Source: Candidatus Sulfotelmatobacter sp. (lineage in GTDB: Bacteria > Acidobacteriota > Terriglobia > Terriglobales > Acidobacteriaceae). From it: DNA of 43,974 nucleotides. Under the pieces are notes generated by a model. The model saw only the letters and a list, made by a program, of their open reading frames with translations, ran no database searches and was not told the DNA's origin. The stretch lies in the NCBI GenBank assembly GCA_030041215.1, contig JASHOH010000229.1, forward strand, positions 1 through 43,974. Reading direction: 5' to 3'. Of this stretch, positions 29,931 through 32,190 are shown piece by piece (position 1 is the stretch's first letter; each line of letters opens with the position of its first letter). The position numbers and the translations under genes were made by a program.

Positions 29931-29938
29931 CATTTTTC
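29931..29938. repeat. Left 8-bp target-site duplication
   Basis: CATTTTTC, identical to 32183-32190 on the other side of the element. Confidence 0.75.
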
Positions 29939-29939
29939 C

Positions 29940-29962
29940 ATGATTATTCACTTGACAAAAGT
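29940..29962 (+). repeat. Left terminal inverted repeat of the transposon
   Basis: ATGATTATTCACTTGACAAAAGT; the right copy differs only at position 18 (A versus T). Confidence 0.85.
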
Positions 29963-29981
29963 TATAGGCTTGTGCCATGAT
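29952..29981 (+). promoter_or_regulatory. Transposase promoter candidate
   Basis: A perfect -35 TTGACA (29952-29957), part of the inverted repeat, is followed after 18 bp by CATGAT (29976-29981, four of six matches). It lies about 160 bp before the transposase start. A 7-bp inverted repeat (CGTAAAT 30052-30058 / ATTTACG 30080-30086) stands in the leader. Confidence 0.45.
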
Positions 29982-30143
29982 GTCTCACATGGAAGCTAAC
30001 TGCTATTTCGGCTTAGGTTTAGAGGCTGCCCGAGCCGCGCGCAATTGCTTCCGTAAATCGCGTTTTATGCTCGCCAGCAATTTACGTGTTGGTACTCGTT
30101 TCAACTGCTCCCGTTTTCCTTTCGCGTCCAATGGAGAACTCCT

Positions 30144-31052
30144 ATGACCCTAGTTGACGTGATTACCCACTTCGATACCGATGAGCGTTGCCGGGAGTTG
30201 CTTGTCCGGCTCCGTTGGCCAAACGGGGTTGAATGCCCACGGTGCAACATGGCTGCCGTAGAACTGGCTACCGAAAAACAATTGTTCTACTGCAAGGGCT
30301 GTGATTACCAGTTCTCCGTAACCACTGGCACTGTGTTCAATGATACGCACGTTCCGTTGCAAAAATGGTTTATGGCTACACTGCTGCTCTGCGAAGCAAA
30401 GAAGGGCATGAGCGCACTGCAACTGAAGCGCACGATCTGGGGAAAGAACAAGGGCTCCTACAAGACCGCTTGGTATCTCTGCCACAGAATCCGCTTTGCC
30501 ATGACTGAAGTTCACAAGATGCTCGACGGGACTATCGAAATCGATGAAACTTATATCGGCGGAAAAAATTGGCACAAGGGAATAGCAGCCGGGCGCGAGA
30601 ATAAATCGGTCGTAATTGGAATTATCAAGCGCGGCGGCGAACTGAAGTTCGTCCACGTCAAAGAGGCTACTTCTGCCGCAATCCGCGAAGTGATGACCGA
30701 ACATGTCAGCGAAGATGTGGATATGATCGTTACCGACGAATCTGTGCTTTATCCTCGCGGCCTTCCCAAATCCCAAGTATCGAAGCGTAAGACGGTCAAT
30801 CACAGCGCCGATGAGTACGTACGGTATGAGGATGGATTCTGCGTAACCACAAACACAGTGGAATCGGCATTCTCTCTGTTCAAGCGCGGGATTGTGGGAA
30901 GCTGGCACCGCGTCAGTCCCAAGCACCTCGCGGCTTACCTGAACGAAATGACATTCCGTTTCAATCGTCGCAAGTCTCACACGCTTTTCCTTGATACGTT
31001 GCGCCATATGGTCACAGCCCCGGTGCTCACATTTGAACAATTGACGGCCTAA
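30144..31052 (+). CDS. IS1595-family (ISXO2-like) transposase
   Basis: A complete 302-residue DDE transposase. The N-terminal zinc ribbon is CPRC (31-34) and CKGC (50-53). The RNase H-like catalytic core shows Asp134 in IEIDETYIGGK, Asp198 in MIVTDES, and NTVESAFSLFKRG with Asn237/Glu240, the third acidic position. SWHRVSPKHLAAYLNEMTFRFNRR is the usual C-terminal signature. GGAG at 30133-30136 with 7-nt spacing supports ATG 30144. No frameshift or truncation is seen, so the element may be active. A 12-bp palindrome GTCCA-AA-TGGAC follows the stop. Confidence 0.95.
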   Translation: MTLVDVITHFDTDERCRELLVRLRWPNGVECPRCNMAAVELATEKQLFYCKGCDYQFSVTTGTVFNDTHVPLQKWFMATLLLCEAKKGMSALQLKRTIWGKNKGSYKTAWYLCHRIRFAMTEVHKMLDGTIEIDETYIGGKNWHKGIAAGRENKSVVIGIIKRGGELKFVHVKEATSAAIREVMTEHVSEDVDMIVTDESVLYPRGLPKSQVSKRKTVNHSADEYVRYEDGFCVTTNTVESAFSLFKRGIVGSWHRVSPKHLAAYLNEMTFRFNRRKSHTLFLDTLRHMVTAPVLTFEQLTA

Positions 31053-31087
31053 TTCCGTCCAAATGGACAGCGCCCTTTAGTAATTAG

Positions 31088-31318
31088 CCTGATTCCGAGT
31101 TTTACCCCATAATCGCCTTGTTTGTTACCGCCCCCTTCGTACAACGGAATCAGGACACTACTTTGGCGAAAGTTGAGATGTCGGTTCGAATCCGACAGGG
31201 GGTACCAGAAACCCTGCATCCGTCTTTACACTGTAGTGTCTTGACCCCATGCATTCATCCCCCATACAATTCATATCGCCAAAGTAGGCGGTTTCCTTCG
31301 GGGAACCGTTCTCAACTT
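31088..31318. repeat. Inverted copies of tRNA-like arm segments flanking the tRNA-like sequence
   Basis: CCTGATTCCG (31088-31097) is the reverse complement of the D-arm segment at 31145-31154. TCGCCAAAGTAG (31276-31287) is the exact reverse complement of the anticodon-arm segment 31158-31169. Shorter matches GTAGTGTC (31233-31240) and TCTCAACTT (31310-31318) also have complements in the tRNA-like sequence. The 12-mer and perhaps the 10-mer exceed chance expectation; the shorter ones may not. Confidence 0.5.
31130..31207 (+). tRNA. tRNA-like sequence with abnormal anticodon arm (tRNA or tRNA pseudogene)
   Basis: A 7-bp acceptor stem (GCCCCCT with AGGGGGT, one G-U), encoded CCA end, a perfect 5-bp T stem around TTCGAAT, and a D arm with GG and one mismatch give a tRNA of 78 nt including CCA. 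The 5' part resembles tRNA-Glu (CCCCTTCGT...CAGGACAC). The anticodon arm is the problem: with a normal 7-nt loop the stem has four mismatches (anticodon would be GGC). With an 8-nt loop TTGGCGAA the stem pairs at four of five positions and the variable loop shrinks to 4 nt. It lies inside the transposon, 77 bp after the transposase. Confidence 0.5.
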
Positions 31319-31350
31319 GAAAGGGCCCTGGCGCGAGTCGGGGCCTTTTG
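31316..31350 (+). terminator. Terminator-like hairpin between tRNA-like sequence and Ntn-hydrolase gene
   Basis: AAAGG(G)CCC pairs with GGGGCCTTT with one bulged G, followed by TTTTGTTATT on the plus strand. It suits a plus-strand transcript of the tRNA-like region and ends just before the stop codon of the convergent gene, so it may serve both. Confidence 0.6.
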
Positions 31351-31353
31351 TTA

Positions 31354-32076
31354 TTAAACATCGTCTAATTCAGGCGGGCTAGCCAATATCCTATCGGCAA
31401 GCGAATGGCTTTTCCCGAGATGTATACGTCTGTATTTTTCTTCGCAGGCTTTTACTTCTCCTGCGTAGATTCGCCGGGTCTTGCCGTCGCTTCGCAGAAT
31501 AACCACATCCGTGTTGCCTCCGCATGTTTCTACCGTGGCTTTCGCTTGGCTAATGATGTAAATCGCCAAACCTGCAACTTTGTGGGTCTCGTTTGTGAAG
31601 AAAGTTGAGAGGCCAAAACCACGAGCTAGATGAGAACCCATTTGTTCGCCCGCGCCGATAAATTTGAACGGAAAGTAAGAGACGAATGATGTCCCATTCC
31701 ATTCGATCAATTCTTGACGGCCATTTTTCTCCTGTATCGCAATTAGCATGTCGGCGATAGGACGGTCATCCCGAGGATAACCACTAAAGGGTAAAAAATG
31801 TCGGCTGAATATTTCCATGCCTAGCGCTTGGATCACATCAAACCGGGGGTAAGGGGAATCGTGCGTAATCGCGCAGGAGCGGAGAATTTGTTGGGCGCAC
31901 ATCTCGACATAATTGCTGTCTCCGGCTCCGGCAATGGCGATTGACCACGTGCTCTGCTGAGAGTAATCGATCTTGAATTTCTCGCCTTTCATGTAGCCAG
32001 CATAGCCAGTGGATTCTTGGGTGTCGGCAGCTATCACAATTCCATCTCGACAGATGAATCCTGCGCCAATCGTCAC
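31354..32076 (-). CDS. Proteasome/HslV-like Ntn-hydrolase, transposon passenger
   Basis: A 240-residue N-terminal-nucleophile hydrolase resembling the 20S proteasome beta subunit and HslV. The chosen start is GTG 32076: it has GGAGG at 6-nt spacing and the next codon is Thr. Removing Met would expose Thr1, as in HslV. Counting from Thr1, Asp falls at 17 (GIVIAAD) and Lys at 34 (MKGEKFK), matching the Thr1/Asp17/Lys33 triad. A later CGGNTDVVIL resembles the Ser/Gly-Gly strand of the family. Longer frames (ATG 32181, GTG 32211) would bury Thr1 behind a Pro/Arg-rich leader and begin in or outside the transposon end. No HslU/Mpa-type unfoldase is nearby. Confidence 0.75.
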   Translation of the reverse strand: MTIGAGFICRDGIVIAADTQESTGYAGYMKGEKFKIDYSQQSTWSIAIAGAGDSNYVEMCAQQILRSCAITHDSPYPRFDVIQALGMEIFSRHFLPFSGYPRDDRPIADMLIAIQEKNGRQELIEWNGTSFVSYFPFKFIGAGEQMGSHLARGFGLSTFFTNETHKVAGLAIYIISQAKATVETCGGNTDVVILRSDGKTRRIYAGEVKACEEKYRRIHLGKSHSLADRILASPPELDDV

Positions 32077-32158
32077 GTATTTCCTCCGGGGCAGCCGCTT
32101 CGGAGTCGGACGCGGTCTCGGTTGCGGCGGCTTAACCGCCACTGTGCGCCAGTTTTCC

Positions 32159-32181
32159 ACTTTAGTCAAGTGAATAATCAT
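32159..32181 (-). repeat. Right terminal inverted repeat of the transposon
   Basis: On the minus strand it reads ATGATTATTCACTTGACTAAAGT, the inverted partner of 29940-29962. Its TTGACT could be the -35 box for the passenger gene, although the -10 is poor. Confidence 0.85.
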
Positions 32182-32182
32182 C

Positions 32183-32190
32183 CATTTTTC
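32183..32190. repeat. Right 8-bp target-site duplication
   Basis: CATTTTTC, identical to 29931-29938. Confidence 0.75.

Follow-up and report, generated by a model that had tools for sequence, protein, structure and literature searches.

Why should a small transposon carry a proteasome-like protease, and how are the histories of the two related? This question is raised by a 43,974-nucleotide (nt) stretch of DNA from Candidatus Sulfotelmatobacter sp. (Acidobacteriota; contig JASHOH010000229.1; hereafter the window), in which our analyses have identified a complete IS1595-family element of 2,244 bp (29939–32182) encoding a transposase and a proteasome-like N-terminal nucleophile (Ntn) hydrolase. 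This element and its relatives are, in our judgement, probably best explained overall as a modular transposon whose protease cassette can be swapped: a left half, consisting of the left repeat and the IS1595 transposase, would be joined to an exchangeable right-half cassette, which nearly always would hold one proteasome-fold Ntn-hydrolase read toward the transposase. The principal parts of the element are as follows:

29939..32182, no strand: whole IS1595-family element, its ends set by the repeats and the duplication (the same rule holds in 53 of the 71 loci described below)
29931..29938, no strand: left copy of the target-site duplication, CATTTTTC, from the sequence
32183..32190, no strand: right copy of the target-site duplication, CATTTTTC, from the sequence
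29940..29962, plus strand: left terminal inverted repeat, ATGATTATTCACTTGACAAAAGT; relatives have similar ends
32159..32181, minus strand: right terminal inverted repeat, from the inverted-repeat comparison
30144..31052, plus strand: IS1595 (ISXO2-like) DDE transposase, 302 amino acids (aa), from Pfam and NCBIfam models
31354..32076, minus strand: proteasome-like Ntn-hydrolase, 240 aa, GTG start; Thr1 is the next codon, and Asp17 and Lys33 are retained
32077..32181, minus strand: Pro/Arg/Lys-rich in-frame open leader with a GGAGG ribosome-binding-like motif, upstream of the GTG

A preliminary description made from the letters of the window had proposed an IS1595-family transposon with a proteasome-like Ntn-hydrolase as its passenger, and this proposal is borne out by the transposase models, the repeats and the duplication. 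The coordinates that it gave were exact: the 23-bp terminal inverted repeats are identical at 22 of 23 positions, and the two copies of CATTTTTC, identical at 8/8 positions, are flush with both ends of the element. The transposase matches the Pfam family DDE_Tnp_IS1595 (PF12762; 99 bits) and the NCBIfam model NF033547 (156.8 bits, cut-off 75), and its N-terminal zinc ribbon matches PF12760 (43.6 bits); the ISXO2-like transposase, the terminal inverted repeats and the 8-bp target duplication together place the element in the IS1595 family. The two genes are convergent, with the end of the hydrolase lying 301 nt past the transposase stop codon, and the element is single-copy in its own genome.

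The association of the hydrolase with this transposase extends over a whole clade. The window's transposase was searched for in 398 genomes of the family, 166 of which contain a match at E ≤ 1e-40, and 60 loci were sampled from these matches (the majority of the top-ranking rows and a selection made by hand from the lower ones). Together with earlier ones, these gave 71 oriented loci (designated by L numbers), 53 of them flanked by perfect 8/8 target duplications; in L042 the automatically placed right end was wrong and a better end was identified. An iterated passenger profile detected the hydrolase in 36 of the 40 loci with 54% or more transposase identity to the window (counting the frame-broken L096 and L098 and the partial L123), in one of two loci at 53–54% identity, and in none of the 29 loci below 53%, five of which have less than 750 nt of downstream sequence. 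Two passenger-negative loci lie close to contig ends, viz. L055 (285 nt remaining on the contig, with a weak match at E 0.0016) and L100 (891 nt). L120 (1739–2872, minus strand), a member of the Ntn clade, holds in the passenger slot a ClpP-like SDH-type serine protease (53.9 bits, cut-off 31.3) that is unrelated to the Ntn-hydrolase, and L056 is a bare 1,579-bp element.

In a transposase tree of 70 rows (L041, whose transposase is short, was left out of this tree and of the Mantel test below), 39 rows, 36 of them with the Ntn-hydrolase, form a group with support of 91/97. L056 is placed in the sister group, which comprises 16 rows, 12 of them with convergent membrane-protein-like passengers; seven of the eight such passengers scanned had no Pfam match and one had a weak EpsG match under the cut-off. 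The rule was also examined in a hold-out set drawn from two other families of the class (13 additional elements), where the hydrolase is present in all eight elements with at least 54% transposase identity (in L213 in part) and in none of the five below. A search for the unit at other sites in related genomes had been suggested; the passenger is the rule in the window's transposase clade, beyond one element.

The start codon of the window's hydrolase sits immediately before the catalytic Thr1. In HslV, Thr1 is exposed through removal of the start Met, and in the passengers simple removal of the start Met may likewise expose it; the leader upstream of the internal start codon is open in 30 of 34 passengers. 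Among 53 passengers, Asp17 and Lys33 are retained in all 53 and Thr or Ser at position 1 in 52, a count that partly follows from the trimming rule (M/V/L, then T/S/A, with Asp in range), of which the Lys33 count is independent; the window's protein has T, D and K at the three positions. The proteasome fold and Thr1/Asp17/Lys33 place it in the proteasome-like Ntn-hydrolase superfamily, although its score against the Pfam Proteasome family (PF00227; 19.1 bits) lies under the gathering score of 22.4; of 34 passengers, 21 match this family at E ≤ 0.1, the best of them at 5.2e-10. The top Foldseek row for the passenger is Anbu, at 13–19% identity, and the fold is also related to 20S beta subunits. 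No Anbu model matched the passenger, the HslV NCBIfam model is not among the matches of the 34 passengers at E 0.01, and the open reading frames of the element include no HslU partner ATPase.

Four of the 34 passengers weakly match the phage HslV-type family PHROG 1040 (best E 0.00063). No relatives of the window's hydrolase were found in viral contigs, and its length of 240 aa, as against about 140 residues, and its transposon context rule out the phage PPH type. Plasmids gave no Ntn relatives, and the 33 plasmid records with transposase relatives are all under 60% identity; a scan of genome contigs with the window's hydrolase alone gave none; a passenger profile search of genome contigs recovered four loci, all from Acidobacteria. 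A C-terminal 'TSEDQ' tail common to several passengers was considered as a protein motif and rejected, as most of the frames concerned terminate within the opposite-strand transposase gene and the tail is thus largely the antisense of the transposase 3' end. The passenger may be catalytically active, either as a peptidase or, like connectase, as a protein ligase.

Passenger and transposase show very different degrees of conservation. For 33 elements, the median identity is 67% for the transposase and 24% for the passenger, with no correlation between the two (Mantel r 0.019, a value reached or exceeded in 706 of 2000 permutations), the frame-broken L096 and L098 and the partial L123 being left out of the Mantel, codon and residue counts. 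The transposases of L124 and L122 are 94.6% identical and their passengers 29.9%; for the window, L039 and L040 the values are 83–86% and 25–26%; and the closest passengers adjoin distant transposases (L124 and L117: passengers 49.7%, transposases 69.9%). At the DNA level, similarity drops to chance at the transposase stop codon in 10 of 10 plotted pairs and visibly recovers (at least 76%) in the last block, i.e. the right repeat, in four of them, while the passenger frame enters the opposite-strand transposase gene by 4–62 nt in 16 of 36 cases. Of the 397 other family genomes, 394 contain nothing that matches the window's cassette DNA, and the remaining three contain scraps of 26–38 nt.

An exchange of the right half predicts the decoupling, the break at the stop codon and the distant best matches, whereas drift in place does not. 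Hence, the cassette has very probably been exchanged between elements, perhaps via recombination between elements with a common transposase 3' end and right repeat. The limitation of divergence to the cassette is also what targeted hypermutation of the passengers in place, with no exchange, would produce; this alternative is highly improbable, however, since the best passenger matches lie beside distant transposases (L124 and L117) or a transposase of another insertion sequence (IS) group (the passengers of the IS1-like L229 and the IS1595 element L124 are 56.6% identical), and since lengths and inter-gene gaps differ wholesale. The sole possible fossil of an exchange is a 24-nt transposase-end-like piece in L112 (E 0.003), and no case of two cassettes at one insertion site was seen among L111, L122 and L124, which share the duplication and do not share the flanks beyond it. 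From the sequences compared, we regard it as almost certain that the repeats, the duplication, the clade-wide linkage, the conserved Thr1/Asp17/Lys33 and the decoupled histories of passenger and transposase are genuine features of these elements.

Some further observations concern the insertion sites and the sister clade. Near-palindromic target duplications (ACTGAAGT, ACTTCAGT, ACTAAAGT and ACTTGAGT) occur among L108, L111, L112, L121, L122 and L124, and suggest a target preference. Homologous flanks mark an insertion hot spot in L056, L119, L126, L127, L128 and L136, which have different passengers and come from different genomes. The membrane-protein-like passengers of the sister clade are those of L126, L128, L129, L131, L132, L134–L138, L140 and L141, and similar passengers, judged by eye, are present in the hold-outs L214, L215, L217 and L218; between L126 and L128 and between L131 and L141, DNA similarity also breaks at the transposase stop.

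The hydrolase is not confined to IS1595 elements. Neighbouring genes were listed for seven hydrolase loci that lack an IS1595 transposase. At four of these (L004, L007, L046 and L050) the hydrolase converges with an IS1-like transposase; all four transposases exceed the Pfam DDE_Tnp_IS1 cut-off (26–33 vs 24.1 bits) and score 52–55 bits against an NCBIfam IS1 cut-off of 100. The element at L050 is complete (2,349 bp), bounded by perfect 15-bp repeats and flanked by an 8-bp duplication, and in L007 the ends match and the duplication was not found. A hydrolase is present in 12 of 30 IS1-like loci retained from a longer list, viz. in 10 of the 11 closest (L050's own included) and in 2 of the 19 others. 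In a passenger tree of 53 rows (without L213, L240 and the presumed duplicates L004, L046 and L050, which have the same matches as L225, L229 and L220), 12 IS1-borne passengers are interleaved with 41 IS1595-borne ones; the tree implies nine changes of vehicle, at least four of them forced by well-supported branches, compared with an average of 11.0 for shuffled labels, which gave as few as nine in 42 of 500 cases. Part of a second, IS1-like transposase group thus carries passengers interleaved with those borne by IS1595 elements.

The insertion in the window can also be viewed from its empty counterpart. Both flanks, joined with one CATTTTTC retained, were compared against 14 loci of related genomes, and the junction is crossed by an alignment in 11 of these: five show continuous alignment over about 310–330 nt to the left and 340 nt to the right at 60–63% identity, and six cross it with just 18–30 nt of left flank; in the other three the joined flanks gave no alignment. 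By these alignments, relatives have the same neighbouring sequence without the element. The expectation in the preliminary description of an empty site thus stands as regards the joined flanks, but the single CATTTTTC that it foresaw there is illegible at 60–63% identity; none of the loci compared had the hydrolase at this site with the transposase and repeats missing.

What the passenger does is a separate matter, on which our proposals are more tentative. The strict fold of the slot, the intact active sites and the rapid turnover argue for a cargo whose targets vary and lie outside the chemistry by which the element itself transposes, e.g. phage, rival mobile elements or proteins of the host. 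We consider this role possible, if somewhat short of an even chance; passenger diversity would then be maintained because novelty itself pays. A more specific and rather more speculative form of this proposal is that the protease (or protein ligase) repertoire shared by two transposase groups is a mobile, diversity-driven weapon or shield. Each version would recognise a different target, and elements would gain by having versions that their neighbours lack; the transposase half would be the vehicle and the cassette the unit under diversifying selection, as in polymorphic effectors.

The hydrolase could alternatively be an accessory of transposition that degrades or processes its own transposase or a host factor, limiting copy number or resetting the transpososome. 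Its near-universal presence in one transposase clade, its fixed place and direction, the single copy in its own genome and the unrelated ClpP-like SDH-type protease in the slot of L120, as if proteolysis were needed, are consistent with such a function; the two proteins do not co-vary (Mantel r 0.019), however, related passengers adjoin an IS1-like transposase, and the sister clade has membrane-protein-like passengers, or none in L056, so that we consider this explanation slightly less probable than variable targets. The decoupling in particular disfavours a protease adapted to the transposase of its own element, although it might recognise a feature that all the transposases share. A hitch-hiking cargo with a housekeeping benefit to the host (protein quality control or peptide turnover) appears less probable again. 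IS that carry passenger genes (transporter IS) form an established class, the fold is related to Anbu and 20S beta subunits, and some relatives lie outside recognisable transposons, but extreme turnover with conserved catalytic residues is atypical of housekeeping genes, and the window's cassette DNA, scraps aside, is unmatched in other genomes of the family.

Several observations weigh against the modular transposon and the role that we favour for its cargo. The exchange step between near-identical cassettes was not caught, the 91/97 support of the Ntn clade is under the strict mark, IS1-borne passengers show slight clustering, and many branches of the passenger tree are long and weak. The passenger of L206 has Ala at position 1, those of L096 and L098 are frame-broken, and the dependence of the Thr1 counts on the trimming rule has been noted above. 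Not every relative of the hydrolase is now transposon cargo, as L043, L045 and L048 have no transposase neighbour in the scanned sequence; the hydrolase of L045 adjoins RecA-like and SRAP genes, and that of L043, which has a site resembling the right repeat upstream of it, adjoins a uracil-DNA glycosylase gene. Lastly, the 34 passengers gave no match to the PADLOC defence families beyond one at E 0.016, so a defence role is without homology support.

The space between the two genes holds the remaining features of the element:

31053..31353, plus strand: inter-gene region, 301 nt, belonging to the replaced cassette and with strong predicted structure (z = −4.56)
31130..31207, plus strand: degenerate tRNA-like sequence, closest to the host's tRNA-Gln(CTG); its anticodon loop has 8 nt
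31320..31349, no strand: terminator-like hairpin with a terminal T-run, between the convergent genes, from fold and sequence

The tRNA-like sequence, which had been described as a companion of the hydrolase in the unit, is real: it scores 37.6 bits with the Rfam tRNA model, above the gathering score, ends in CCA, and matches tRNA-Gln(CTG), the closest of the host genome's tRNAs, at 60 of 78 positions. However, it is found in the window element only, its cloverleaf is not the best fold, and it is no general partner of the hydrolase: no tRNA was found inside the other Ntn elements scanned (by ARAGORN, and by Rfam too for ten loci), and the tRNA-Glu of L108, considered as an in-element partner, is located outside that element. 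The best fold of the sequence alone is −25.8 kcal/mol, compared with −19.2 for the cloverleaf; within the 301-nt region, which folds better than all 100 shuffles, the values are −105.6 and −78.2, i.e. the cloverleaf costs 27 kcal/mol. Perfect flank complements of at least 8 nt cover 34 of its 78 nt (mean in shuffles 1.8 nt; 0 of 1000 as high), and with an 8-nt anticodon loop (reading ggcg) it lacks the 7-nt loop and the stable cloverleaf of a functional canonical tRNA. A working tRNA coupled to the hydrolase as one unit, e.g. a suppressor of frameshift or missense mutations whose anticodon loop has 8 nt, would fit the Rfam score, the terminal CCA and the allo-tRNA-like genes within IS1595 elements of other clades; it is scarcely credible in view of its absence from the other Ntn elements scanned, the disfavoured cloverleaf, alone or in context, and the perfect complements to its middle in the flanks. 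We regard the sequence as a captured, degenerate tRNA embedded in competing RNA structure, and not as a conserved part of the system.

Allo-tRNAs have a 12-bp acceptor domain in an 8/4 or 9/3 layout, whereas the tRNA-like sequence in the window, with its 7/5 layout and short variable region, does not belong to this class; odd tRNA-like genes are also known from Acidobacteria (PMC7609411). In our survey, allo-tRNA-like genes with a long variable arm and the anticodons TAT, TAA or TTA are present in L143 (1769–1859, minus), L146 (205–295, minus), L149 (1940–2026, minus), L150 (1822–1912, plus) and L152 (1992–2076, plus), all IS1595 elements of other transposase clades bounded by repeats and duplications, and weaker tRNA-Sec-like matches occur in L057, L145 and L151. 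These genes bear on the published guess that UAU allo-tRNAs associate with transposable elements (PMC7609411). L057 (831–3071) is the second IS1595 element of the window's own genome, with a tRNA-Sec-like gene, and of the genome's 48 tRNA matches none scores lower than those in the two elements (37.6 and 32.3 bits); between L057 and L143, similarity continues downstream of the transposase, unlike in the Ntn elements. Two other RNA matches were recorded, viz. an Acido-Lenti-1 RNA at L143:1324–1369 (minus; 50.1 bits, gathering score 37), about 50 nt beyond the right end of the IS1595 element, and a SymR antitoxin-RNA-like match at L142:2019–2094 (minus; 47.3 bits, under the gathering score of 61).

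In the open-licence literature, we found no paper combining proteasome or protease with transposon terms, and what we call new here is a transporter IS with a clade-locked, freely exchanged enzyme fold as its cargo. Passenger exchange would be so fast that the transposase says nothing about its protease, and this raises the question of why a selfish element needs an ever-changing protease. As most of these elements have two genes, the function of the passenger is testable, and the passengers are also a source of diverse single-gene proteases.

The IS1595 family described by Siguier and co-workers in 2009 reportedly includes members with passenger genes (the 'transporter IS'). The elements described here share with these the transposase domains, the terminal repeats, the 8-bp duplication and a passenger beside the transposase, but differ in that one enzyme fold is linked to an entire transposase clade, with versions of the fold replaced far faster than the transposase. 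Tn7-like elements are transposons with exchangeable cargo and likewise have a variable cargo region in a mobile element, whereas the elements studied here are tiny, mostly of two genes, and their cargo stays within one fold. The proteasome-like homologs, viz. HslV, Anbu, BPH, connectase and 22 further groups, resemble the passengers in fold, in Thr1-Asp17-Lys33 and in being single-gene prokaryotic proteins; phage-borne PPH and AAH have also been described (PMC8665760). In the main text of that 2021 survey, from which both 'transpos' and 'acidobacter' are absent, no genomic context suggestive of a specific function is given for the new homologs (PMC8665760). For the passengers, in contrast, two transposase groups provide the context, and a large, divergent group of proteasome homologs now has a clear setting as the cargo of small transposons.

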